A DNA stretch of 49,721 nucleotides from Candidatus Lutacidiplasma silvani (GTDB lineage Archaea > Thermoplasmatota > Thermoplasmata > Lutacidiplasmatales > UBA184): contig JAKIVZ010000018.1 of NCBI GenBank assembly GCA_022750295.1, forward strand, positions 1-49,721. Reading direction: 5' to 3'. The stretch's first letter is position 1, and every line of letters starts with the position of its first letter. The position numbers were made by a program, and so were the translations under genes. Under the pieces are notes generated by a model, which did not search any database, was not told the origin of the DNA, and was given only the letters and a program-made list of their open reading frames with translations. This document shows, in pieces, positions 1 through 17,751 of this stretch.

Positions 1-1197
1 GGGCCCTGCATGACTGGAGCCTCCGTCAGTGAAACCGTTGCCAAGTACTGGAATCCCTGAGCCGGCGTGCTCGGCCGCTCCAGTGAGCACGAACATCGTC
101 TGAAGTGTTCGATTCCGACAGTCGCTCGTCCCGCCTTCCAAGACAGTTCTAATCGGGAGACGGAGGCCCCCCGGGTTGCGGAAGACGAACATGCCCTCTC
201 GCCGAGTTATCAAGACTGGCGTCCTGCAACTGTAATCCGCATGGATCATCGTGTTGACGAGCGCCTCGCTCAGTGCCTCCCTGAGCTGCTGCGCCGCCGC
301 GCTCTTCCCCTTTGAACCGCCTTTGACCGGAATCTTGACGTCCGCGACGAGGCGAGGGAGGGTCCGAAGATAGAAGTCGTAGAGGTTGCCAGACCAACTT
401 CCGTCGGTTGCATTTCGGAAGACGATGTCCGCTGGACCACCTTCGCCGGCCCGTTCCTGGTAATCTAGGAAGTAGAACTGAAAGTATTCGCGAATTGACC
501 TAAGACGACCGAACATCAGCAGGCCGGCCAAAGTCACCCCTTGGACGCCCGCTTCCCGATCCCTTCCGAGGACTCCCAATTCGAGAAGAAATTCGTCCCC
601 CTCCTTCTCTAAGAACGGGTGGGTTGGCTTGGCGTGTTGAAGATCAGCTCGAAACCGAGCAACGGTATCGAGATCAAGGTCTGCGGTAGAAAATTTGGGG
701 AGCACTTTTGTGTCGCGCGACTCTTCGAGCGCCTCGGCCAGCATCCGCTTGACTGCAAGGTCATCGCAGTGGTAGTCCCCGCGGAACCCTCGTCGAAACG
801 TCCCGCGCATCATGTCCTCTCCGACGAAGATAGGCCGATCAGAGCGGCCGGCCCGGGGGATGCTAACGACTAGGACAGAATGTCCCTCCAAGGGCTCAAT
901 ATGGGCGGACTCAGAAGAGAGTAAATTCCGACTAACGATCTGTCGGTTGTTCGCACCGTCGAAGACTTCGACTTGAACTCGATCGGGATTTTCCAACCCG
1001 GCTACCACGAAGCCCACGTCGGTCTCACGAACTCCGAGAACGATAGCCCCCCCTTCGGCATTGGCCATTGCCGAGTACGATTCCCAAAAGCTTGCGGGAA
1101 GCTTCCCTTTTCCATCCGGCCCATGGGCGAGTTTGAACTCAATATCTGACTCCTCCCCCAGCGAAAGGGCTTCTCTGATTCGGTCGATATCGGTCAT
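1..1197 (-). CDS. Schlafen AlbA_2 / HATPase-domain ATP-binding protein (3' end beyond window)
   Basis: An uninterrupted minus-strand frame runs from ATG at 1197 to the window edge, giving 399 visible residues without a stop. The N-terminal part matches the AlbA_2 (Schlafen-type, COG2865) domain: SDIEFK at residues 17-22 and MANAEGGAIVLGV near 44-56. The C-terminal part has a HATPase_c_4-like signature, EALVNTMIHADYS from about residue 311, then FRNPGGLR and GAAEHAGSGI. Proteins of this family are putative DNA/RNA-binding ATPases, often called regulators or defence-linked; the exact role is unknown. It is the last visible gene of a minus-strand set, 44 bases after the SAP-like gene. Base composition is noticeably lower in G+C than downstream genes (the 60 bases from 661 are 50% G+C), suggesting transfer. 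Family assignment is firm; function is open. Confidence 0.85.
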   Translation of the reverse strand, partial: MTDIDRIREALSLGEESDIEFKLAHGPDGKGKLPASFWESYSAMANAEGGAIVLGVRETDVGFVVAGLENPDRVQVEVFDGANNRQIVSRNLLSSESAHIEPLEGHSVLVVSIPRAGRSDRPIFVGEDMMRGTFRRGFRGDYHCDDLAVKRMLAEALEESRDTKVLPKFSTADLDLDTVARFRADLQHAKPTHPFLEKEGDEFLLELGVLGRDREAGVQGVTLAGLLMFGRLRSIREYFQFYFLDYQERAGEGGPADIVFRNATDGSWSGNLYDFYLRTLPRLVADVKIPVKGGSKGKSAAAQQLREALSEALVNTMIHADYSCRTPVLITRREGMFVFRNPGGLRLPIRTVLEGGTSDCRNRTLQTMFVLTGAAEHAGSGIPVLGNGFTDGGSSHAGP

Positions 1198-1241
1198 GCT
1201 TCTGCGGCCTCCCCACCCCCATCAGTTCCGAGGCGGGCACC

Positions 1242-1556
1242 TCAGACGTTCAGAGCCTCCTCAACTCGGCTAACTAGCTCGGGTCGGGAGCCGGAGACCG
1301 GGAGACCGAACTCCTCACAAAGATCTGCCAACTCCTCCTTGCGAAGGAACGATAATGCCTCAGACGGGTCGAATTCAGGGGAGCGCGCCAGCCTATTGAC
1401 GAGCTCCGGCTTCGATCCCGTTACCGGGAGTCCGAGCTCTTCGAGGAGATCCTGAACATCCTCCTTGTAGAGATACCTGGAGAGTATGAATCGGAGAAGG
1501 CCGGTGTCTACCATGCTTCCGGGCCCCCTGTCCGGGGGCAATGAAGGTCCCTGCAT
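1242..1556 (-). CDS. Small protein with two SAP-like helix-extension-helix repeats
   Basis: The product is about 104 residues from ATG 1556, or 90 from ATG 1514. It contains two tandem copies of a SAP-like unit: LLEELGLPVTGSKPELVNRL and, about 40 residues later, LCEEFGLPVSGSRPELVSRV. SAP motifs are about 35 residues long and usually bind A/T-rich DNA or mediate nucleic-acid contacts; the G-x-P-V-x-G-(S)-(K/R)-x-E-L core is plain here. The ATG at 1556 overlaps the TGA of the upstream HTH-tailed gene by one base (TGATG), which suggests translational coupling, though MVDTG at 1514 is a more SAP-proximal start. It lies directly upstream of the AlbA_2/HATPase gene and may provide its DNA-binding partner (inference). 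Confidence 0.75.
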   Translation of the reverse strand: MQGPSLPPDRGPGSMVDTGLLRFILSRYLYKEDVQDLLEELGLPVTGSKPELVNRLARSPEFDPSEALSFLRKEELADLCEEFGLPVSGSRPELVSRVEEALNV

Positions 1557-2059
1557 CAAGAACCCTTCGAGTCCAGCCGGGATCGCCTGTTAAACACCGT
1601 CCGCCGACTCACTCCCAACCTCCTCGCGACCTCCGTCGCGCTCCCCTTGAACGGGTCCGGATCGACGTACCGCTTCGCGCGCCCTCCGACCGCACGGATT
1701 CCGAGGACCCGAGCGTCCTCGATCCGGTTGGCCTCCTTGCCGAGCCGGACGAAGTTCTTCTTTCGGACCAAGACGTGCCGTCGGACCGCTCGACCTTGCG
1801 AGTCGAAGATGTACTTCCGTTCCGGGTGCCGGACAAAGTCCTCGACCACCGAGCCCCAGGATCGCTGCCGCGGTAGCTCCATGAGCCGCGCGCTCCCCGC
1901 CGCGTCCTTCGGGCCGACGAACGCCACCAGCTCCGACCTCATTTCGTCGGTATCTCGGGACGGCTCAAGGAGGCGGGCGGTCAGGAACGTGAACGGGCGA
2001 AGGTCTCCGAGGCGACACACTCGTGGGAGGAGGTTCGGGGTTGACAAGGATAAGTCCAC
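1556..2059 (-). CDS. Unknown protein with C-terminal helix-turn-helix
   Basis: The frame encodes 167 residues from GTG 2059; an internal GTG at 2020 is also possible, about 31 bases after a TTATCC island. I do not recognise the family. The last 30 residues, EVARRLGVSRRTVFNRRSRL, look like a helix-turn-helix. The middle is basic and charged (RKKNFVRLGKEANRIEDA). The gene is the first of a tight minus-strand set, ending in TGATG overlap with the SAP-like gene. A decayed second copy of the same coding sequence lies at 2890-3123 in the same orientation, which shows that the reading frame has evolutionary history and is not a chance ORF. Likely a sequence-specific DNA-binding regulator of the island (inference). 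Confidence 0.65.
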   Translation of the reverse strand: MDLSLSTPNLLPRVCRLGDLRPFTFLTARLLEPSRDTDEMRSELVAFVGPKDAAGSARLMELPRQRSWGSVVEDFVRHPERKYIFDSQGRAVRRHVLVRKKNFVRLGKEANRIEDARVLGIRAVGGRAKRYVDPDPFKGSATEVARRLGVSRRTVFNRRSRLDSKGS

Positions 2060-2203
2060 GGTCGCGGGGCCTTACGAGAAGTTCTCGGACGCGCCATCGG
2101 CTCGCTCGATGATTTGCTCCCAGAGCTCCGCAACCCGCTCCTCCCGATGTCCACTGAGCCGGGGTGATATCCGACTCCCGCCTTCCTGTGCCGGGGGCGA
2201 GGA

Positions 2204-2889: not shown

Positions 2890-3123
2890 AGCGAATCGAG
2901 GCGGCCCCGCCGCCCTCCGATCCGCCACGGGCGGGTCCGTCTCCCCCGACGCACCCCGGACCCACTCGTGACTCCCGCGGCGCTTCCGTGGAACGGGGCC
3001 CGGTCGAGCCACCGCTTCGACCCGCCTTCCACCCCTCGGAAACCAGGCCTTCAGGCACGCTCAATCCGGTCGGCCTCGTTCCCAAGTCGGACCAACACCC
3101 CCCACCGAACGCAGCACCCCCCC
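2890..3123 (-). pseudogene. Decayed second copy of the HTH-tailed gene at 1556-2059
   Basis: The minus strand here aligns with the 3' half of the gene at 1556-2059. From base 3092 downward the two sequences align without gaps for more than 120 bases: VRLGNEADRIERA here against VRLGKEANRIEDA there, then KRWLDRAPFHGSA against KRYVDPDPFKGSA, and both end near RLDS. A TGA at 3051-3053 interrupts the frame. Upstream, GVLVR matches HVLVR, followed by an 18-base deletion. No intact start exists. This is a degraded paralog fragment, so the region once carried two copies of the gene. It accounts for most of the otherwise gene-free stretch 2879-3273. Confidence 0.8.
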
Positions 3124-3273
3124 TAGATTCGTCCTCGTCGGCGTTTGACGACGTGACGGAGGGGTCGACGGGAAACCCTCCGGGGGGCCCGGTCGTCGGC
3201 GATGACCCTCCGTACGCGATGGGGACCTCGGGAGCCGCTCTTACGTCAATGGCAAGGGGTGCACGACAGGCGC

Positions 3274-3888
3274 CTACTTCCTCTTGGATGCGGTCTTCTC
3301 TCGAACGGCTTCGTAGTGCAGGACCAGCTCCCCGTACGGCATATGGCTCGCCGAGAGAAGCTTCAGGGTGGTTTGCGACTTCATCGGGTACCAGTACCGG
3401 GGCCCCCGACCGAAAACGACGGGCATGACGAGGAACCAGTAATCGTCTGCGAGGTTGAGACGGAGGACCTCGGCGATGAGCCGTGGCCCCCCTTCGATGA
3501 TGATGTTCCCACCCTTCTCGTTCTTGAGTTTCTTGACGATCTTCGAAAGGTCGCCCTTCAGGAGCCGCGAGTTCTCCCAGTCGAGCTTCTTCAGCCGATG
3601 CGACAGGCAGACCTTCTCGACCCGTTCGAGGAATCGAGAGTAATCGAACATGAACTTGGGGGCGTCGGGCTTCCGTGCCTTCAGCGAGTGAACCCGAAGG
3701 TGGCCGGTGAACGATCGACGCCCCATCACGACCGTCGTGACGTCCGAATACCGGTCGGTCCACATCTTCCGGAAGAACTCGTCCGGTTCGTCGGGATCTC
3801 CGGAGGGAAGATCGGAGCCCGGGTACTTGGGGAACTCTCCGCGTCCGTCGAGGGTCATGTACAGATTGGCGGTCACCTTTCGCGTCAT
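3274..3888 (-). CDS. RibD C-terminal / dihydrofolate-reductase-like protein
   Basis: The 204-residue product begins MTRKVTANLYMTLDGRGE, typical of the RibD_C (DHFR-fold) family, which includes riboflavin-pathway reductases and many uncharacterised NADPH-dependent reductases. Further marks are TVVMGRRSF near residue 60 and NIIIEGGPRLIAEVLR near 135, the latter the usual glycine-containing cofactor loop. ATG 3888 is chosen because the family motif starts there and GGGGAG lies 7 bases upstream. Longer upstream frame lacks homology-like sequence. Stand-alone single-domain members such as this are usually not the riboflavin enzyme itself; the substrate is unknown. Confidence 0.85.
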   Translation of the reverse strand: MTRKVTANLYMTLDGRGEFPKYPGSDLPSGDPDEPDEFFRKMWTDRYSDVTTVVMGRRSFTGHLRVHSLKARKPDAPKFMFDYSRFLERVEKVCLSHRLKKLDWENSRLLKGDLSKIVKKLKNEKGGNIIIEGGPRLIAEVLRLNLADDYWFLVMPVVFGRGPRYWYPMKSQTTLKLLSASHMPYGELVLHYEAVREKTASKRK

Positions 3889-4085
3889 GTTGGTTCTCCC
3901 CAGATTTGCGGAATTCCAAGCCCCGCCCCGGCACGGGCTCCATGGTCCGTTCGACGGCGCCCGAGGGCGACGGGAGCACGGTTCGATGCCGCGCGGCACC
4001 TCCAGGGCCCTCCGTCCTTGACGGGGTTGGCGAATCCCTCGGGGTCCCTCGGCCCAGTCGTCTCGAGCAACGTGCCCTGGTTCAT
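3885..4085 (-). CDS. Doubtful 66-aa upstream ORF before the RibD-like gene
   Basis: A short ORF from ATG 4085 ends in TGA that overlaps the RibD-like ATG (ATGA). A GAGG sequence lies 5 bases upstream and a TTTAAG box about 42 bases upstream. The composition is rich in Arg, Gly and Ala and does not look strongly protein-like, so it may be a leader ORF or simply the untranslated leader of the reductase gene. Confidence 0.25.
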   Translation of the reverse strand: MNQGTLLETTGPRDPEGFANPVKDGGPWRCRAASNRAPVALGRRRTDHGARAGAGLGIPQIWGEPT

Positions 4086-4123
4086 TCCGCCTCGGAGGCG
4101 ACCAGCAATGACGCCGTGCTTCT

Positions 4124-4130
4124 CTTAAAC
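4124..4130 (-). promoter_or_regulatory. TATA-like box upstream of the RibD-like gene
   Basis: GTTTAAG on the minus strand is the only clear A/T island in the 444-base gap 3889-4332. It would place a transcription start near 4100, before the 66-residue ORF and the RibD-like gene. The rest of the gap (4131-4332) shows no convincing gene or structured RNA. Confidence 0.4.
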
Positions 4131-4332
4131 TTGGTAGAACCGCATCGCGCCGGACCCGACACGCCCTGCCGGCTCCTGCGTCGGTCCCGCCCCCGAGCGG
4201 GTTGTGGGGCCCTATCCGATTCCGCCACCAACGCCTGACGCTCGGATCAGCTTCTCGACTCGGACCAGCTTGCCCCCGCGGGATTGTTCGGGGGACTCGC
4301 CGGCGAGTTGCGGCGCCGGCACGTCGCCCGGC

Positions 4333-5121
4333 CTAGGGCGCCTTCGGTCCCGTGCCGGCCCCGCACTCGGAGCAGAACTTCGCCCCGACGGGAATCGCGG
4401 CCGCGCAGGCGGCGCACTTCGTGGTGGCCACTGACGCTCCGGCGGTCCCCCGCTTCGGAAGCCGCCGGACGAGCGTGATGGCGATAATCCAGATGCCGAC
4501 GATCAGGAGAATCCAGCTGACGAACCCGACGACCCCGAAGACCAGCAACAGCGGGAGGAGCCCCGAGAATCCCGAAAACAGACTCGAGAGGGGATTGCTC
4601 GTGTTGTTCCCGCCCCCGTTGCCGTTTCCGTTCCCGTTTCCGCTGCTGGAAGAGGTGACGTCGACGCTCGCGCTGTTGCTCGGGCCCGACGTATTGCCGA
4701 GGGAGTCGGTCACCGTGACTTGGACGCTGAACGAGCCCGTGGACGATGGGGTGCAGGAGAACGACGCCTGATCTTGGCTCGAACAGCCGGGGGGGAGACC
4801 GTCGTAGGAGTACGAGTACGGGGGCGTACCTCCCGTCGCTGTCGCCGAAATGGAAATCGAGTCGCCCTGCTGGATCTGACCCGGACTGATCGAGAGGCTC
4901 GCCGCGATCGTGTTGGTGGCCGGGCTGGCGCTCGCATCCAGGTGCGCTTCCGCGAACGCGGGGGATGCCGACCGGATCCCCGCTCCGGAGACGGCGTTCA
5001 GGGTAACCGCGCCGGCGGCGAGAAGGAGAATGGCGAGCGCGGCCACCGCGCCGGTGGTCGGATTGAGGGCGAGGTGAAACCGGCGTCGGCTTGCGTGCGT
5101 TTCAGTCAGCTCCGACCCCAT
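4333..5121 (-). CDS. Surface protein: Ig/PKD-like domain, C-terminal TM and cytoplasmic zinc ribbon
   Basis: The 262-residue product has a hydrophobic N-terminal segment (about 24-47) serving as signal or anchor, then a PKD/Ig-like beta domain (about 75-155) with the typical GGTPPYSYSY strand pair and a possible Cys-Cys bridge (GCSS, SCTP). A Ser/Gly/Asn linker with repeated GN dipeptides follows, then a strongly hydrophobic segment near 190-220 (LLPLLLVFGVVGFVSWILLIVGIW). The C-terminus carries a CxxC...CxxC zinc ribbon (CAAC and CSEC). By topology the beta domain should be outside and the zinc ribbon inside. The start is supported by an A/T island 26 bases upstream. It is divergent from the GT4 gene. 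Role unknown; perhaps a sensor or envelope scaffold. Confidence 0.8.
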   Translation of the reverse strand: MGSELTETHASRRRFHLALNPTTGAVAALAILLLAAGAVTLNAVSGAGIRSASPAFAEAHLDASASPATNTIAASLSISPGQIQQGDSISISATATGGTPPYSYSYDGLPPGCSSQDQASFSCTPSSTGSFSVQVTVTDSLGNTSGPSNSASVDVTSSSSGNGNGNGNGGGNNTSNPLSSLFSGFSGLLPLLLVFGVVGFVSWILLIVGIWIIAITLVRRLPKRGTAGASVATTKCAACAAAIPVGAKFCSECGAGTGPKAP

Positions 5122-5361: not shown

Positions 5362-6738
5362 ATGGAACCGCTCACCATCTGCGTCAACAGCCAGACGCCC
5401 CTCCTCCAATTCCTCCCCCCACCGGAGGATACTCCGGGAGCGGCCTGGCCTGGGAGCGCCCGGCTGGACGAGTTCGACGAAGGGGTGGAGTACCGGTTCT
5501 CCCCCGGTGGGGTGACCCGAATGGTCTACCCACTCCTCCGTCGCCTGCTGGCGAACGGTGTGCTCGCCGGGGCCAGCTGGGTCGCGCTGAACTCGGTCGG
5601 CCCTCGGCAGGTCCGCGCGGACGGGCTCACACTGGAGAACGTGGCGCTCGACCCGCTCCGGATGGGGGGCTATGCCAAGACGAAGGAGGCGATCTGGTCG
5701 ACCGTCCACGGATTGGAGCCTCCCCCGGCGGTCGACGACCTGTTCTGGAGCGAGGAGTTCACCGAGTACGCGTTCTACAATCGGGTGACCGCCGAGCGGA
5801 TCCGGAAGCTGGACGCCGATCTCGACTTCGACGCGTTCTACATCCACGACTTCCAGCAGATGCCCGTCGGGCAGATGCTGGGCTCGCTCAAGCCGAAGAT
5901 CTTCCGCTGGCACATCCCCTTCGAGGCGGAGCGGATCCCGGAGAGCTGGCGGGAGCTGTTCGTCTCCTACCTCGCCGAGTACGACGTGGTGGTCGTCAGC
6001 ACCGAGCGGTACCGGGCCGCCCTCACGACCCTCGGGTACGAAGGCAAGTCGCTCCGGATGTACCCCTACGTCGACCCCCGGGAGTACCGAAGGCCCACCA
6101 AGAAGGTCGTCGAAGCGACGTGCGCCCGCTGGGGCGTCCGCCCCGACGACCTCGTGATCTTGGTCGTGGCCCGGATGGACCCGACGAAAGCCCACGACCG
6201 GGCGATCCAAGCGGTCGCGAAGCTCGTCCCCGCCTATCCGACCGTGCGGCTCGTCCTGGTGGGGAACGGAAGCTTCTCCGCGGCCTCCGGGGGGCTCGGG
6301 CTGTCGAAGGCGGCCCGTTGGAGGGCGCACCTCGAGGCGATGGCCCACCGGCTGGGCGTCGGCGAGCGGGTGATCTTCACCGGTCACGTCGGCCAGGAGG
6401 CGTTGGACTGTTTCTACGAGCGCGCGCAGTTCACCGTGCTCCCCTCGGTGAACGAGGGGTTCGGCCTCGTCGTGGTCGAGAGCTGGCTCCACCGCCGGCC
6501 GGCGCTCGTGACGGAGCGGGCCGGGATCGCCGAGCTCATCCAGGACGGGGAGAACGGCATCCTCTTCGACCCGGACGACATCGGCTCCCTCGCCCAGAAG
6601 ATGCGCGAATTGCTCGACGACGACGGAACGGTCTCCGCTCGATTGGCCCAGAACGCTCTCGTCACCTCCAAACTCTGCACCCTCGCCCGGGCGGCCCGGG
6701 GCGAGGCCGAGCTGCTCGCCATGGCGATCGAGGCGTAG
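5362..6738 (+). CDS. GT4-family glycosyltransferase, TreT-like
   Basis: The 458-residue cytosolic protein has a two-Rossmann GT-B layout. The N-terminal half contains YIHDFQQMP and FRWHIPFEAERIPESW, which resemble the acceptor-side motifs of trehalose glycosyltransferring synthase (TreT). The C-terminal half has VARMDPTKAHDRAI, VLVGNG and the GT4 donor-site signature ending in PSVNEGFGLVVVESW, with the ExxxxxxxE pair. The frame is open upstream but ATG 5362 is the first plausible start after the promoter box. The MscS gene starts one base after its TAG, so both are probably co-transcribed. A link between compatible-solute synthesis (trehalose) and osmotic pressure release is attractive but inferred; other GT4 sugar acceptors are possible. 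Confidence 0.85.
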   Translation: MEPLTICVNSQTPLLQFLPPPEDTPGAAWPGSARLDEFDEGVEYRFSPGGVTRMVYPLLRRLLANGVLAGASWVALNSVGPRQVRADGLTLENVALDPLRMGGYAKTKEAIWSTVHGLEPPPAVDDLFWSEEFTEYAFYNRVTAERIRKLDADLDFDAFYIHDFQQMPVGQMLGSLKPKIFRWHIPFEAERIPESWRELFVSYLAEYDVVVVSTERYRAALTTLGYEGKSLRMYPYVDPREYRRPTKKVVEATCARWGVRPDDLVILVVARMDPTKAHDRAIQAVAKLVPAYPTVRLVLVGNGSFSAASGGLGLSKAARWRAHLEAMAHRLGVGERVIFTGHVGQEALDCFYERAQFTVLPSVNEGFGLVVVESWLHRRPALVTERAGIAELIQDGENGILFDPDDIGSLAQKMRELLDDDGTVSARLAQNALVTSKLCTLARAARGEAELLAMAIEA

Positions 6739-11758: not shown

Positions 11759-12004
11759 ATGAGACTGCCCCTCGAGACGGTGGTCGGCGCGTTGTTCGCC
11801 GCGTGGGGCGTCGCGCTCATGTTCGTGCTCCTGGCGGGGCTCGTTTGCGGGCTCTTCATCGTCCCCTTCGTGCCGTACCTCCGGATTTGGTGGGGCGCCG
11901 CGATCGGGCTTTCGGCCTCGGGTTCCTGGCTGGCGTTCGAACTTTCCAACGGGGAAGGATTCGACGTGGGGGAGGAACACGGCCCCGACGACGGCTCGGA
12001 TTGA
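11759..12004 (+). CDS. Small membrane protein with two TM segments
   Basis: From ATG 11759 the product is 81 residues: a hydrophobic helix at about 6-30 (VVGALFAAWGVALMFVLLAG), a second at about 30-50 (FIVPFVPYLRIWWGAAIGL), and an acidic tail ending GEEHGPDDGSD. The frame extends up to ATG 11660, but the additional 33 residues look unlike a protein. No clear TATA box is seen at either start. No family is recognised. It sits alone between the divergent FnIII gene and the DUF1801 gene. Confidence 0.6.
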   Translation: MRLPLETVVGALFAAWGVALMFVLLAGLVCGLFIVPFVPYLRIWWGAAIGLSASGSWLAFELSNGEGFDVGEEHGPDDGSD

Positions 12005-12228
12005 CTCGGGCTCGGGCGGCCCCCGGACCGCTTGGCGCGGGCCATCGGCACGCTTCCAGACGCAATCGGCCGACCCACCCGATGGGTCCACTCCGGGGAC
12101 GGCGTGTGCGTGCCTTGCGCCAGCGAATCGCCCGCGCCCAGATCCGGATTCCCGCCGAATGAACGGACTCTGCGGCGACGAGACGAGAATCCGAAAGCTT
12201 TCCAAGTCTGTCCGACCGTGGAACGTCG

Positions 12229-12840
12229 ATGCCCGCAGCGAAGAGCGTGGACCAATACATCCGAGAGGCCCCGGTCGAGTCGCGAGCCGCGCTGGAAAAG
12301 GTCCGAAGGGCCATCCGGGAGGCGGCGCCCGGTGCCGAGGAGACGGTCAGCTACGGGATGCCATTTTACGGGTACCCGGGAGAGGTGGGAATCGAGGGAA
12401 GACTCTGTTATTTCGGGCTCAAACGGTCCACCCTCGGTCTTTTCCTACGGCCCAAGGACCTTGACCCCCACGCCGAGCAAATTGCTCCGTACCGGAGCGC
12501 GAAGTCCGCCCTCCATTTCCCGCTGGACCGGCCGATTCCGATCTCCCTGATCCAGCGGCTCGTTCGGGACGCCGACCGAAGGCATCGGGCCGGGAAGTCG
12601 CACTCGCCTCGGGAGGGGCCGCCGCGACGCCGCCCGAGCGGGGGTCCTCGCCCCCCGTACTTCGCAGAGGCACGGACCGGCGGATTCCCGGGAACCGGGA
12701 CGAACCGACCCCTCCGATCCGAGGGCTCGATCGAGTCCGAACGGCCGCGGGACCGGGCGACGGGCAGGATGGCCATCTCCCAACCGCAAACGCTTAACCG
12801 TTGTGGGATTCCAACACATCGATGGCCTCGAAGGTCGTGA
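12229..12840 (+). CDS. DUF1801 / YdhG-like protein with unusual tail
   Basis: The first 120 residues match the DUF1801/YdhG fold (frataxin-like): VDQYIREAPVESRAALEKV, then ETVSYGMPFYGY, GLKRSTLGLFLRP and SALHFPLDRPIP. The frame continues for about 80 basic, Pro-rich residues lacking family similarity, crosses the promoter of the next gene and ends 18 bases inside it. That tail may be an artefact of a lost stop codon. An AAAGCTTT island at 12194-12201 lies about 31 bases before the start. A second DUF1801 member is at 31594-32037. The family has been proposed as iron chaperones in bacteria; the role in this organism is unknown. Confidence 0.75.
   Translation: MPAAKSVDQYIREAPVESRAALEKVRRAIREAAPGAEETVSYGMPFYGYPGEVGIEGRLCYFGLKRSTLGLFLRPKDLDPHAEQIAPYRSAKSALHFPLDRPIPISLIQRLVRDADRRHRAGKSHSPREGPPRRRPSGGPRPPYFAEARTGGFPGTGTNRPLRSEGSIESERPRDRATGRMAISQPQTLNRCGIPTHRWPRRS
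12793..12798 (+). promoter_or_regulatory. TATA-like box of the wtpABC-like operon
   Basis: CTTAAC, within CGCTTAACCG, is centred about 27 bases before ATG 12822, the spacing of a leaderless transcript. It lies inside the tail of the DUF1801 ORF. Confidence 0.6.
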
Positions 12841-13913
12841 TCGTGGTCGTCGTCATTCTCGTCGCACTTGGCGGGATCGGCCTCGGATTCGTGGTCGGAT
12901 ACGAGTACAAGACATCCCCCGCGTCGAGCCCGTCCACGACGACGAATTCGACGTTGAGTGTACTTGGGGCGGGGACCCTCGACACCCTCTTCCCGCAGCT
13001 CGCGAACCAGCTCGTCAACGAGACCCCCAACATCACCGCCCCGGCGGCGGCCCAGACGTACGAGGGCTCGCTCGACGTCACCACCGCGATCACCACCACC
13101 GGCGCCCTCGCCGATGTCGCGGCCGTGGCCGATTTCCGGCTCATTCCCCAGCTCCTCGAACCCACGTACGCCCACTACGAGGTCGTGTTCGGGTCGACCC
13201 CTGAGGTCCTCGCCTACAACCCGTCGATCGCCGCGTTCAACGGCATCAACGAGACGAACTGGGCCGAGAAGCTGGTCACCGACGTGACGACCTCCGGCAA
13301 CGCCAAGATGGCGGTGTGGAACGCCTCGACCGACCCGAACGGCTACAACGAGATCTTCAGCCTCGAGCTCCAGGGGATGCTCTACAATGGGAGCACGACC
13401 CAGTTCTACAACTCCCTCTACAGCGGGGGCTCGGGAACTCCCGCGGTCCCCAACCCGTCGACCACAGTCATCGAACACGAGTCGCAGGCGGCGACGTTGC
13501 TGAACACGGGCGTCGTCTCGGCCATGATCACGTACCGGTCGTACGCGGTCGTGAACCACCTGACGTTCGTCTCGTTCAACCCGATCGTGGGGCTTCAGGC
13601 GAACAACACAACCGCCCTCTCCGATTACGCGAAGCTATCCACCACCATTGTATCGTCGAGCGGTAGCCTTGCCTCGGTCGAAGCGGCGCCCATCCTGTTC
13701 TCGGTCACCGTCCCCGCGAACGCGCCGAACCCCGCCCTCGGCGCGGCGTTCCTCCACCTCCTCCTGTCTCCCCAGGGGAGCGCCATCCTCTCCGCGGGCG
13801 GCGCGTTCACGCCGATCTTCCCTGGGTGGTCGAATGACCCGGGCGCCGTACCCTCGGTGCTCGCCCCGGACGTGACGACTCTTCCGGCATGGGCGAGTCC
13901 GTACCTGTCGTAG
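12822..13913 (+). CDS. wtpA: Tungstate/molybdate ABC transporter substrate-binding protein
   Basis: The 363-residue protein starts with an uncleaved-looking membrane anchor (VVIVVVVILVALGGIGLGFVVG), then a Ser/Thr-rich linker and the binding domain. The domain begins VLGAGTLDTLFPQLANQL, the equivalent of the AGSL oxyanion-binding motif in WtpA/ModA proteins, and continues with TTGALADVAAVADFRLIP and YNPSIAAFNGINETNW. No lipobox Cys is present, so anchoring is by the N-terminal helix, as in many archaea. It is the first gene of a three-gene importer operon and overlaps the permease gene by 25 bases. Choice between tungstate and molybdate, and less likely sulfate, cannot be made from the sequence. 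Confidence 0.85.
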   Translation: MASKVVIVVVVILVALGGIGLGFVVGYEYKTSPASSPSTTTNSTLSVLGAGTLDTLFPQLANQLVNETPNITAPAAAQTYEGSLDVTTAITTTGALADVAAVADFRLIPQLLEPTYAHYEVVFGSTPEVLAYNPSIAAFNGINETNWAEKLVTDVTTSGNAKMAVWNASTDPNGYNEIFSLELQGMLYNGSTTQFYNSLYSGGSGTPAVPNPSTTVIEHESQAATLLNTGVVSAMITYRSYAVVNHLTFVSFNPIVGLQANNTTALSDYAKLSTTIVSSSGSLASVEAAPILFSVTVPANAPNPALGAAFLHLLLSPQGSAILSAGGAFTPIFPGWSNDPGAVPSVLAPDVTTLPAWASPYLS

Positions 13914-14791
13914 GAACCAGTGGCGCGGGCGCCCCGCCCCCGCGTCGGCATTGGCGGACCGGCCCGCTCTGGCTCGCCCTGCAGGTTGTCCTCTCGGGCT
14001 CGCTGCTGCTGCTCTTCGTCGTCCCGATCGTGGCCCTCTTCGCCTACGCCCCGTTCCACGACGTCGTCTCGTCGTGGAACAGCGAGGACGTCCGCGCGGC
14101 GCTCTGGCTGACGTTCTTCTCCTCGGGGATCGCGGTCCTGGCCGCGGTCGTCTTCGGGATCCCGATGGGGTACCTCCTCGCCCGCCGGAAATTCCCGGGT
14201 CGTGCGATCGTCGAATCCCTCGTGGCGCTCCCCGTCGTCGTCCCGCACCTCCTCGTCGGGCTCGGGCTCTTCTTCCTCGTGATCCCGGGAACTCCGCTCT
14301 ACCGATTCACCCAGTCGATCGGGTTCCCGGTGTACGACACCATCTGGGGCGTCGTCCTCGTGATGGTGTTCGTGAGCGCCCCGTATACGGTCCTCGCGAG
14401 CGAACTCTCCTTCCGGGCGGTCGATGGCCGCGTCTTGGAAGCGGCCCGGTCGCTCGGCGCCGGGGCCGCGACGGCGTTCCTCACCGTCACCCTGCCTCTT
14501 GCCCTCCGGGGCATTGTCGCCGGCCTCCTCCTCTCCTGGGCCCGGGCGGTCAGCGAGATCGGGGGCCTCCTCGTTCTCGCGTACGCCGTCTATCCGGGAG
14601 GGCCGTACGATGGGCCGGTCACGTCGACGATCTCTGTGTACGTCTACAACCTGTTCCAGAATGGCAACCTTCACGACGCGGCGGCGGTCAGCTCGCTCTT
14701 CCTGCTCATCGCCTTCGCCCTCTTCCTCCTCGTCCGAATCGGCGAACGATCGGGGTGGGTTCCCTGGCGCCGGGGGGAGCTTGGCCCATGA
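13889..14791 (+). CDS. wtpB: Tungstate/molybdate ABC transporter permease
   Basis: A 300-residue integral membrane protein with about six hydrophobic segments. It carries the BPD_transp_1 coupling helix motif in the form EAARSLGAGAATAFLTVTLP near residue 190, where the EAA loop docks onto the ATPase. The sequence PMGYLLARRKFPGRAIVESL is typical of ModB/WtpB. It starts within the last 25 bases of wtpA and its TGA overlaps the ATG of the ATPase gene (ATGA), so translation of the three genes is probably coupled. The N-terminal 25 residues are Gly/Pro/Arg-rich and cytoplasmic. Confidence 0.9.
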   Translation: MGESVPVVGTSGAGAPPPRRHWRTGPLWLALQVVLSGSLLLLFVVPIVALFAYAPFHDVVSSWNSEDVRAALWLTFFSSGIAVLAAVVFGIPMGYLLARRKFPGRAIVESLVALPVVVPHLLVGLGLFFLVIPGTPLYRFTQSIGFPVYDTIWGVVLVMVFVSAPYTVLASELSFRAVDGRVLEAARSLGAGAATAFLTVTLPLALRGIVAGLLLSWARAVSEIGGLLVLAYAVYPGGPYDGPVTSTISVYVYNLFQNGNLHDAAAVSSLFLLIAFALFLLVRIGERSGWVPWRRGELGP

Positions 14792-15831
14792 GCCACCAGT
14801 GGGTCGTCGAGGGGGTCGAGACCGACCTCGACCGGTTCCACCTCGGGCCCGTCGATTTGACCGTCGCGCCCGGAAACGCCGTCGCGATCCTCGGGGCCTC
14901 GGGTGCCGGGAAGACGACCCTCTTGCGCACCCTCGCCGGGTTCCTCCCGGTCCGGAAGGGTCGGATCCTCCGTGACGGGGTCGACATCACCACCTGGCTT
15001 CCGGAGGAGCGGTCGCTCGGGTACGTTCCGCAGGGTCTCGGGCTGTTCCCCCACCGGACCGCGGCTGGCAACATCCGGTATCCGCTGGAGATCCGGGACC
15101 GGCCGGATGCCGATGGGCGGACCCGGGAGCTCCTTGAGCAATTCCACCTGGGCTCGCTCGCAAACCGCTACCCCTCCCGGCTGAGCGGGGGGGAGCAGCA
15201 GCGGGTGGCCCTCGCCCGGGCGCTCGCCGCCGACCCGCGGCTCATCGTCTGGGACGAACCGTGGCAGGGGCTCGACGTCCTGGCCCGCTACGAACTCGGG
15301 CTCGTCCTGCACGAACTGCGGGAGTCGGAGCGGGTGCCGATGGTGATCGTCACGCACGACCCGGCGCTCGCCTTCTCGGTCGCCGATTCGTTCGTCGTGC
15401 TCCGGCGGGGCGAGGTCCGAGAACAGTGCGACGCCGCCACCTTGCTCCGAGCCCCGGCCGACCCGTTCGCCGCCCGGTTCGTGGGCTTCGAGAACGTCTA
15501 CGACCGCGCCGTCCTGCAGCCGGGCGCCGCCGGATCGCTTCGCGCATGGCTCGGCGCGCGGGCCGGGTCGGAGGGCGTGGCATTCGCCAGCCCCAGCTAT
15601 CCGACCAGCTTGGAGACCGCACCCGGTTGGGTCGGAAAGGTCCGGAGCGTCCGACCGAGTCCGTCGGGGGTCACGGTCGAGGTTGTGGCGGACGAGTTGA
15701 TGGTCACGCTTCGCGCACCCCCCCCGAGGGCCGGGCCCCTCCCGGGACTCGGGGCCTCCCTCCGGTTCTCCATCGAGCCGGGAAGCCTTCAACCCCTGGG
15801 GAAAGCCGCGGCGCCTCCTTCCGGGTCCTGA
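14788..15831 (+). CDS. wtpC: Tungstate/molybdate ABC transporter ATP-binding protein
   Basis: A 347-residue ATPase. Walker A is GASGAGKTT (about residue 37), the signature is LSGGEQQRVALARAL, Walker B is RLIVWDEPWQGLD, and the H-loop is VIVTHDPALAF. The usual Leu before the catalytic Asp is replaced by Trp (VWDEP). A C-terminal regulatory domain of about 110 residues contains ENVYDRAVL and a TOBE-like beta region (GVTVEVVADELMVTL), which in ModC/WtpC homologs can sense oxyanion. It is the last gene of the operon. Energises import of molybdate or tungstate for cofactor synthesis. Confidence 0.9.
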   Translation: MSHQWVVEGVETDLDRFHLGPVDLTVAPGNAVAILGASGAGKTTLLRTLAGFLPVRKGRILRDGVDITTWLPEERSLGYVPQGLGLFPHRTAAGNIRYPLEIRDRPDADGRTRELLEQFHLGSLANRYPSRLSGGEQQRVALARALAADPRLIVWDEPWQGLDVLARYELGLVLHELRESERVPMVIVTHDPALAFSVADSFVVLRRGEVREQCDAATLLRAPADPFAARFVGFENVYDRAVLQPGAAGSLRAWLGARAGSEGVAFASPSYPTSLETAPGWVGKVRSVRPSPSGVTVEVVADELMVTLRAPPPRAGPLPGLGASLRFSIEPGSLQPLGKAAAPPSGS

Positions 15832-15920
15832 CCGGCTCGGGCGCGTGCCGACGGCCAAGGAGGCTTCATGAACCCGAAGCTCGTAGCGCGGCTGCCTCCC
15901 GAGGGTGGCGAAGGAAACCT

Positions 15921-16718
15921 ATGCGAAGCAATCTCCTGGGGCTCGGGCTGGTCCTTGTGGTCCTCGTGTTCCCCGCGACCGCGGCGGCGACCCTCGGGGT
16001 GACTCCGGCGGCCGCCCCGTCGAACGCGCTCTTCCTCTCCGGCCCGCATGCGAGCCCCGTGTCCAGCACGAACTGGGCCGGCTACGCCGTGACCGGAGCG
16101 AACGGATCGGTGAGCTTCGTGTCGGGTTCGTGGATCCAGCCGACCGTGAAGTGCACCGCGGCGTCCCGGTACGCCGCCTTCTGGGTCGGCATCGACGGCT
16201 ACAACTCTCGCACGGTCGAGCAGACCGGGACCGAGAGCGACTGCATCGGCGGCGTGGCGTACTACTCGGCCTGGTACGAGTTCTACCCCGCGTACCCGGT
16301 GACCGTGTCGATGGTCATCCACCCCGGCGACACGATGAAGGCGTCGGTCACCTACGTGAGCTCGACCGTCGGGTTCCGGGTCTCGATCACCGACGTGACC
16401 ACGGCCGTGACGGTCACCCATGCGAAGACGGTCCCGACCGCGAAGCGCAGCTCGGCGGAGTGGATCGCCGAGGCCCCGTACTCGAGCGGCGTCCTCCCGC
16501 TCACCAACTTCGGGACGGTCCACTTCGGGACCGACGCGACCGGCGTTGCGCACACCAACGAGGCGACGGTCTCCGGGACGACGGCCGCCATTGGGGGATT
16601 CCTCGCCCCATCGATCCACCGCATCACCATGGCGACCAGCGTACACGTGAAGGCCGCCACGTCGTTTCTGACCCCGGACGGCACGAGCTTCAACGTCACC
16701 TGGAAGCACGCGGCCTGA
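15921..16718 (+). CDS. Secreted G1-family (eqolisin, glutamic) peptidase
   Basis: 265 residues with a signal peptide (LLGLGLVLVVLVFPATAAA). The mature part has the peptidase A4/G1 hallmarks: STNWAGYAV near 49, YAAFWVGIDGYNS near 84, VEQTGTES with the catalytic-type Gln at 101, and SSAEWIAEAP with the catalytic-type Glu at about 180. Cys78 and Cys108 may pair. Eqolisins are acid endopeptidases using a Gln/Glu dyad, best known from fungi and also present in bacteria and some archaea. ATG 15921 is chosen because an AAGGA sequence is 5 bases upstream and the signal peptide follows directly. It lies 89 bases after wtpC and may be independent. Activity at low pH outside the cell is inferred from the family. 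Confidence 0.88.
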   Translation: MRSNLLGLGLVLVVLVFPATAAATLGVTPAAAPSNALFLSGPHASPVSSTNWAGYAVTGANGSVSFVSGSWIQPTVKCTAASRYAAFWVGIDGYNSRTVEQTGTESDCIGGVAYYSAWYEFYPAYPVTVSMVIHPGDTMKASVTYVSSTVGFRVSITDVTTAVTVTHAKTVPTAKRSSAEWIAEAPYSSGVLPLTNFGTVHFGTDATGVAHTNEATVSGTTAAIGGFLAPSIHRITMATSVHVKAATSFLTPDGTSFNVTWKHAA

Positions 16719-16807
16719 GAGCGCCCGTCCGCCGAGGGCAGACGCGATCGTCGGCCGCATCGAACCGACCCCGTCGCCGCTATGGGCCCGTCCGCTCTTC
16801 CGGCCGC

Positions 16808-17314
16808 GTGGCGCGCTGGCCCCCACCGGTCTACCGCATCCGCACCGAACTCGACGCTCCAATGGAGTTCGTGTTCCGTTGGTGCACCGACTACGCGACC
16901 AACGACGGGAAACTCTCCGGGGAGCCGTTCGAGCGGCGGATCATCGCGCGAACCCCGGAACGCGTGATCCTCGAGGACCTTTGGTGGACTCCGGACGGGT
17001 GGAAGTGGCGCCGGTCCGACGTCCGCCTGTCCCCCCCCGACCGGTGGCATTCCGACTCGGTGAGCAACATTCGAGATGCGTCCATCGATTACCAACTGAC
17101 GAGCCTCCCGGAGGGACGGACCCGCCTCCTCATCGTCATGCACCGTCGGCCCGGATCCATCCAGCCCATCCAGCCGCCGCGGGCGGTTCTGGAAGCGGAG
17201 ATCGGGCGATTGTGGGATCGGATCGGAGCGTCCCTGGCCCGGGAGTATCGCGGCTCCGGCCCGCGGAGGAAATCGCCCCGCTCGGTCTCACGGCCCGCCC
17301 GCAGTCGGATCTGA
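16808..17314 (+). CDS. SRPBCC-family protein (START-like fold)
   Basis: About 168 residues from GTG 16808. It contains APMEFVFRWCTDYATND near residue 20 and a TPDGWKWRRSDV strand, and ends with a basic tail. A paralog is on the minus strand at 41191-41658, sharing FVFRWCTDY, a DLxxTPxGWxW segment and PxRWHxD. Together they define a small SRPBCC group; the fold makes a hydrophobic ligand pocket, but the ligand is unknown. ATG 16862 is an alternative start but would cut off the first strand (VYRIRTEL), so the GTG is preferred. Confidence 0.75.
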   Translation: MARWPPPVYRIRTELDAPMEFVFRWCTDYATNDGKLSGEPFERRIIARTPERVILEDLWWTPDGWKWRRSDVRLSPPDRWHSDSVSNIRDASIDYQLTSLPEGRTRLLIVMHRRPGSIQPIQPPRAVLEAEIGRLWDRIGASLAREYRGSGPRRKSPRSVSRPARSRI

Positions 17315-17394
17315 CGCGCCCGACGGGGTACGCTTCGCGGCCCGGCGGGAGGGAGGCGCGCGTCCGGACGCCCTCTCTCCAACGGGAAAGGAAC

Positions 17395-17402
17395 GCCTAT
17401 CC
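17395..17402 (+). promoter_or_regulatory. TATA-like box for the OB-fold gene
   Basis: GCCTATCC is centred 26 bases before ATG 17425, the leaderless spacing; the box itself is weak. Confidence 0.4.
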
Positions 17403-17424
17403 GCGTCGGGGGCTCTGCGGACGC

Positions 17425-17751
17425 ATGCCCGAGAGTCGACCTCCCGCGACGTTCATCACCGACCTCCGCCCGTCCCGGATGGCCACCCTCGAGGGCACGG
17501 TCGTCGGTCTCGAGGCGACGCGGGAGATCGCCACCCGGGACGGCGGGACGAAGAAGGTCCGGAACGCCCGGCTGAAGGACGCGACGGGCGAGATCTCGCT
17601 GGTCCTCTGGGGAACCGAGGTCGACCTCGTGAGCGAGGGCGACCGGGTCCGAATGATCGAGGCGTGGGTGTCCGACTACCGGGGCCGGCCCCAGATCTCG
17701 CTGGGTCGGACCGGGAAGCTCGAGAAGCTCGGTTCCGGCACCTCGCCCTAG
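17425..17751 (+). CDS. Single OB-fold nucleic-acid-binding protein (SSB/RPA-like)
   Basis: 108 residues forming one OB fold: RMATLEGTVVGLEATREI, then VRNARLKDATGEISLVLWG, EGDRVRMIEAWVSDYRGRPQ and a conserved end of strand five. The ARLKDATGEISLVLWG pattern is typical of archaeal SSB/RPA-like and SOSS-B-like OB domains. Unlike the SSB at 38071-38616 it has no glycine-rich tail. It may be a second ssDNA-binding protein or an RNA-binding OB protein. It stands between the SRPBCC gene and the FMN reductase gene on the same strand, each apparently with its own promoter. Confidence 0.8.
   Translation: MPESRPPATFITDLRPSRMATLEGTVVGLEATREIATRDGGTKKVRNARLKDATGEISLVLWGTEVDLVSEGDRVRMIEAWVSDYRGRPQISLGRTGKLEKLGSGTSP

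Follow-up and report, generated by a model that had tools for sequence, protein, structure and literature searches.

Contig C27 of the 2.1-Mb, 29-contig genome bin of Candidatus Lutacidiplasma silvani (G000) probably carries at its end the remnant of a dead family 2-like casposon in a Thermoplasmata genome, with a tandem-SAP gene and an AlbA_2/ATPase gene most likely as its passengers. This contig, 49,721 nt in length, is the window analysed here; its base 1 is a contig end. An earlier note on this DNA had described the 167-aa ORF beside the two genes as a new HTH protein; we found it to be what is left, at the 3′ end, of a gene for a family B DNA polymerase. The locus most likely has no transposon function now. 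Its features are listed in Table 1.

Table 1. Features at the left end of the window and the evidence or remarks belonging to them.
Feature	Position (nt)	Strand	Remarks
AlbA_2 + GHKL-type ATPase gene	1-1197	-	3′ end past contig edge; Pfam, alignment
Tandem-SAP gene	1242-1514	-	ATG start, 90 aa; in-frame upstream starts give 104-105 aa; Pfam
167-aa ORF	1556-2059	-	Within polymerase remnant 1556-2158
Casposon-type family B DNA polymerase, 3′ remnant	1556-2158	-	Profile positions 674-879
In-frame TGA	2072-2074	-	Parts the 167-aa ORF from the remaining polymerase remnant
Second polymerase 3′ remnant, more decayed	2892-3170	-	39-47% identity, internal stops
Stretch shared with contig C13	1-55		Bases 2-55 identical to C13:1-54 (L003 1-54)

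The layout given in the earlier note, three tightly packed minus-strand ORFs with a TGATG overlap (which holds for the 104-aa SAP start) and a gap of 44 bases, was borne out. So were two of its domain calls, the double SAP (Pfam SAP, 1.8e-17, two copies) and the AlbA_2 domain (SLFN_AlbA_2, 8.5e-10, 39.6 bits vs a cut-off of 25.3). Two others stood in part. An HTH is present in the 167-aa ORF (HTH_23, 1.1e-4), but its 22.3 bits fall short of the cut-off of 24.6, and HATPase_c_4 reached 22.7 bits with a cut-off of 26, whereas its N-box and GSG residues are invariant with the homologs. The AlbA_2 gene is indeed low in G+C, with 57.8% vs 68.4% for the window; values for the tandem-SAP gene and the HTH ORF are 57.1% and 65.5%, and the first 1.2 kb of the window belong to the lowest-G+C stretches of such size.

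The polymerase origin of the 167-aa ORF was shown by several comparisons. Its best homolog is 79% identical, and relatives from the same genus (two loci filed as Thermoplasmata archaeon, one as Euryarchaeota archaeon) carry a polymerase of 829-894 aa. At full size this gene has about 890 codons; here, approximately the first three quarters are missing and the last ~200 codons are left. Window positions 2146-1577 align with residues 638-827 of the 829-aa polymerase (PolB) of G055 at 74% identity over 190 residues, and upstream of this stump there is no match to earlier residues of the G055 protein. A profile of three PolB sequences matched the window with 275 bits and one of 28 sequences with 96 bits (positions 676-895 of the latter); the profile match extends over window positions 1541-2158. 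The frame of the intact copies extends well upstream of the region matching the 167-aa ORF, giving 829 residues in G055 (open at the contig start) and 894 residues in G062. The G062 protein contains the motifs DTETTT, GFNLPFDL, DFTSQFPSLY, K..SN...YG, YCDTDS and KRY, of which we take DFTSQFPSLY, K..SN...YG and YCDTDS to be the polymerase motifs A, B and C, respectively. The exonuclease and polymerase motifs are absent from the stump, where homology begins past motif C and KRY, and the HTH-like match at residues 140-163 of the ORF, which is under the Pfam cut-off, lies at the C terminus of PolB.

Pfam detected no polymerase domain in the intact PolBs, the sole match being a sub-threshold exonuclease, and PHROGs and NCBIfam gave weak polymerase matches. 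Therefore, profiles and a structure model were used. Searched against the PDB, the 28-sequence profile recovered family B polymerases at 4e-8. For the 894-aa relative, an AlphaFold model (pLDDT 87, pTM 0.86) matched the structures of KOD, 9N, phi29 and Pol alpha (E ~1e-12; TM-scores 0.29-0.40 by query length), and the solved structures among the 50 matches listed are, by our reading, all family B polymerases. Of 150 relatives, 25 have a homolog of the 167-aa ORF (this genome counted), and 14 of the 25 have two to three matches; several of these copies are fragments or have stops, at differing points. Neither PolB nor AlbA_2 had a relative in the viral contigs searched with them.

A scan of named genomes yielded 51 PolB loci, in Thermoplasmata, Methanosarcina, Methanolobus, Nitrosarchaeum, Nitrosomonas, Ca. 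Forterrea and others. A Cas1 ORF lies within 10 kb of the polymerase at 43 of the 51, in a few cases as a fragment match only (E <= 1e-5 on the fetched DNA, with a model grown from the Cas1 of locus L048, itself a Pfam Cas_Cas1 match at 5e-48). No Cas1 was found at the other eight, some of them on short contigs (L097, L115, L123, L124, L127, L128, L131 and L141). The threshold for inverted repeats was passed by 19 loci, from which L119, L122 and L134 were dropped as having long inverted repeats and no target duplication. The remaining 16 combine inverted repeats with direct duplications that measure 10-17 bp and, at ten of these loci, 14 bp (counted without a shuffled control). Given the Cas1 genes near 43 of the 51 loci and the repeats and duplications at 16, this PolB is a casposon polymerase.

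An excerpt of Krupovic et al. 2014 (PMC4046053) describes the core of family 2 casposons as Cas1, PolB, HNH and two HTH proteins, with an HTH domain at the C terminus of both Cas1 and PolB. The polymerase of the window belongs to the same family and has the C-terminal HTH. Same-genus loci with a whole polymerase have Cas1, HNH-like and HTH proteins, and some of them a repeat end. L048 and L049 show PolB, an HNH-like ORF and an HTH ORF in the family 2 layout, with Cas1 present in L048 and, in contig C10 of G062, ~3 kb further on; the HNH-like ORF was recognized by eye, Pfam giving for L048 only DUF968 under the cut-off. Elsewhere, complete elements are flanked by two repeats and by target duplications. 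The 9.9-kb casposon of L096 (3512-13368), for example, has inverted repeats of 39 nt, a target duplication of 14 bp and a polymerase 66% identical to that of G062. This locus is filed under "bacterium isolate DX1.bin10", yet its polymerase is close to the Thermoplasmata ones. The casposon inverted repeat of the genus begins GGGGGTAGTACC...; its consensus was read from L094, L095 and L056, so the full repeat scores of these three are circular. In L056 (3214-3351), two genus-type repeat ends lie in opposite orientation ~65 bases apart, beside another polymerase remnant.

In contrast to these elements, the window holds polymerase 3′ remnants only. No Cas1 was matched in its six frames, and the best inverted repeat (21/33) lies within background, the left end being past the contig edge. 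In tblastn searches with the L048 and L049 proteins, HNH matches in the window were of low complexity and at chance level (best 1e-4), and the HTH proteins likewise gave low-complexity or weak matches only. The contig edge cuts off the left end, so that a position of the SAP and AlbA_2 genes inside an element is at most probable. Casposon decay extends beyond this locus, as contig C16 of the same genome holds a casposase 3′ remnant covering positions 292-452 of the Cas1 model; this C-terminal piece corresponds to L187 5554-6099 (near 73.6 kb of C16). On contig C11 (L186 5155-5943), a Cas1 coding sequence, of either CRISPR or casposon type, was matched as two pieces. The second polymerase remnant of the window, 0.7 kb from the first, suggests repeated casposon insertion at this site. 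A RibD_C-type reductase and a PKD/zinc-ribbon protein (window 3274-5121, minus strand) adjoin the polymerase remnants. Around the glycosyltransferase ortholog of the relatives fetched, there was no RibD homolog, and PKD matches were scattered and not consistently placed, so that the left 5 kb of the window look variable.

The AlbA_2 gene resembles proteins that join SLFN_AlbA_2 with HATPase_c_4 and a winged HTH, and ~381 of its residues align with them. Homology is secure to residue ~381-384, and the invariant positions of the family are kept (E20, W38, N46, GG49-50, E311, N315, DY321-322 and G379). Among the 19 distinct homologs aligned to residue 381, 18 run on for 99-129 residues and the nineteenth lies in a short frame; the window contig ends 18 residues after this point. 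From the alignment, we read the C-terminal ~100 residues of the relatives as a winged HTH; in the window gene this part, if present, falls past the contig.

The stretch shared with C13, where it stands in the same orientation, encodes the final 18 residues of the AlbA_2 frame, which is open at the contig end. As C27 and C13 begin with the same 54 bases, the gene ends at an assembly fork. Its 18-residue tail adds 5.1 bits to the match with a profile of 14 homologs, which was equalled by 1 of 200 shuffled tails; with the tail, the profile match reaches residue 393, and a few pairwise alignments reach 390-395. On the C13 side, the shared stretch is joined to a gene of the genus that we take to be hemerythrin-like. 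The match to the family of this gene begins only at the end of the stretch, three residues inside it, and gains 5.0 bits, equalled by 5 of 200 shuffled heads. The stretch thus hardly fits this family, and it fits the AlbA_2 family weakly. Pfam gave no match for the C13 gene, and its N-terminal half was not found in this bin. An initial reading of the shared stretch as the end of a foreign insertion element cutting AlbA_2 was withdrawn after the tail and shuffle test. Judging by both comparisons, the stretch more probably belongs to AlbA_2, with C13 as the odd join. The fork may stem from a strain branch, a rearrangement or an assembly error. In the 101 genomes searched, C27 and C13 alone carry the core of the shared stretch. 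Overlaps of ~55 nt are present at other contig ends as well (50 of the 58 ends compared), which fits a k-mer boundary.

AlbA_2 was detected in 8 of the 150 relatives including this genome, and the other seven are all outside the genus and family. Across the phylum, 22 of 388 other genomes (23 of 389 with this one) have a relative, 16 of them in a single family (f8), and again none is another genome of the same genus or family. The "accessory" label and the defense or regulatory island proposed in the earlier note agree with this absence and with the cargo position behind a casposon polymerase. SAP relatives are weak and occur in 7 of the 150 genomes (best E 5e-8 outside this genome). SAP and AlbA_2 are found together only here and in G104, where they are on different contigs.

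It is unlikely that the two genes came independently from another island or element and adjoin the polymerase stump by chance. Their G+C content of 57-58% vs 65.5% for the stump would agree with such an origin, as would the left boundary of the locus past the contig edge and the variable look of the whole left 5 kb. Furthermore, AlbA_2 genes elsewhere do not adjoin casposon genes, which counts against the cargo reading: 35 AlbA_2 loci, each searched with up to 1.5 kb on both sides (five places are listed twice), contain no SAP, PolB or Cas1. Set against this, the TGATG would let one of the possible SAP starts overlap with the stop codon of PolB; the two genes share a strand, and SAP sits where casposon loci of the same genus carry cargo.

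Still less probable is that the 167-aa ORF has been domesticated as a working DNA-binding protein regulating the SAP and AlbA_2 genes. The ORF has no internal stop, and a comparison of 156 codons with the G055 PolB gives a dN/dS of 0.09, which implies constraint for most of the time since the two diverged. However, such constraint is expected from the shared history as PolB, and other pairs of copies give 0.14-0.21; several other PolB copies are fragmentary or bear stops, including the decayed second copy close to the ORF. The stump thus bears the mark of polymerase selection, and therefore either the front of the gene was lost recently or the stump is still used. As for a new three-component system of HTH protein, tandem SAP and AlbA_2 ATPase, the tight packing and common strand speak for it, but the reading is extremely improbable, given that the HTH part is a polymerase fragment and that, among the genomes searched, homologs of the three genes co-occur nowhere but in this genome (within the 150 relatives, the 25 genomes with a PolB-type ORF and the eight with AlbA_2 share only this one).

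Under the casposon reading, an intact element would bring a family B polymerase of its own, together with Cas1 as integrase, small HTH proteins and an HNH protein, and would replicate and insert between short target duplications, 14 bp long in most. The surviving part of the polymerase would comprise the thumb region and the terminal HTH, probably touching element or template DNA. Position and patchy distribution suggest that the tandem-SAP and AlbA_2/ATPase genes are passengers. If made, both proteins would bind nucleic acid: by family, SAP is predicted to bind DNA and AlbA_2 to bind or cleave nucleic acid, and the GHKL module together with a C-terminal winged HTH (past the contig, if present) may switch AlbA_2. 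From family and context, the two could form a defense or regulatory pair, a prediction we hold tentatively. The novelty is modest, i.e., a decayed casposon remnant plus a lead on casposons as defense carriers. The locus illustrates how the remains of a transposon polymerase gene may be mistaken for a small DNA-binding protein of a new kind. It also links an orphan AlbA_2 gene with a mobile element of the sort connected to how CRISPR adaptation arose.

Variable and often defense-like cargo, in most cases on both sides of the core, was seen in the 16 repeat-bounded casposons and in two same-genus loci for which the sequence fixes one end. L095, which covers the same place as L048, has a SIR2 gene (SIR2_2, 1.6e-9), presumably STAND-like, between the PolB stop and the right-hand inverted repeat at 13707; a repeat search of L095 gave no clear pair, and probably only one end is on that contig. 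The G055 locus L047 (2363-4635) is similar to the window in that a smaller gene and then an AlbA_2-type gene directly follow a casposon PolB of the same genus. It differs in the partner, which is HEPN_AbiV (5.4e-14) and not SAP, and in the AlbA_2-like gene, which has 21.8 bits (cut-off 25.3), lacks an ATPase match and was not matched by a profile made from the AlbA_2 family of the window. The interval from PolB to a tentative repeat at 5928 holds these two genes and a third ORF (FokI-domain match only, sub-threshold). This repeat agrees at 22/33 positions, no better than some background matches, and exactly in its first 13 bases.

Pfam was run on 20 of the 48 ORFs listed behind PolB and gave no match at E <= 0.001 for seven of the 20; which families count as defense-like follows general knowledge. 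In other elements the genes behind PolB included HSDR_N (with a sub-threshold NACHT), KAP with DUF4238, PIN-TPR-GreABC, Beta protein, a CAP12-type TIR (under the cut-off), helicase/MTES_1575, OLD-type genes and a glycosyltransferase. PADLOC was applied to 51 ORFs (45 from the 16 repeat-bounded elements, four from the two same-genus loci and the two window genes). The cargo matches included GajA at 5e-282, probably the OLD-type AAA/TOPRIM gene in the slot at 11950-17556 of a Brevundimonas casposon (L138); the window genes gave only weak matches to pAgo-related models, best 2e-6. As a control, 34 ORFs were taken from the opposite, Cas1 side, where 13 of the 16 elements have such ORFs and three have none; they matched type IIG restriction (3e-246), PtuA and SIR2. 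Defense cargo is therefore not confined to the PolB side, and the idea that the slot behind PolB is special for defense genes was rejected. Altogether, the cargo matches comprise models of Gabija GajA, type IIG restriction, Septu PtuA, SIR2 and AbiV.

Sir2-like, methyltransferase, restriction and KAP genes are given as casposon cargo in the excerpt of Krupovic et al. (PMC4046053), in which the SAP and AlbA_2 pair does not appear, and an excerpt of a thaumarchaeal study reports a HEPN nuclease inside a casposon (PMC6563490). Among the publications searched, none names both "casposon" and "Schlafen". It is somewhat doubtful that both parts of a wider reading hold, i.e., that casposons are general carriers of defense genes in archaea and bacteria and that the SAP/AlbA_2-ATPase pair is an undescribed defense or regulatory module that reached this Thermoplasmata genus on one of them and stayed when the element had died. 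The survey of 16 bounded elements makes the idea of the casposon as defense carrier directly testable and may matter more than the locus itself. Two further loci of the survey stand out by their structure. L098 (2053-15590), filed as Nanoarchaeota archaeon, is a casposon with perfect inverted repeats of 224 nt, a 14-bp duplication and cargo including a glycosyltransferase. L103 (836-3529 and 9899-12556), from Methanolobus bombayensis, has the casposon polymerase and the Cas1 ORF twice each within 22 kb.
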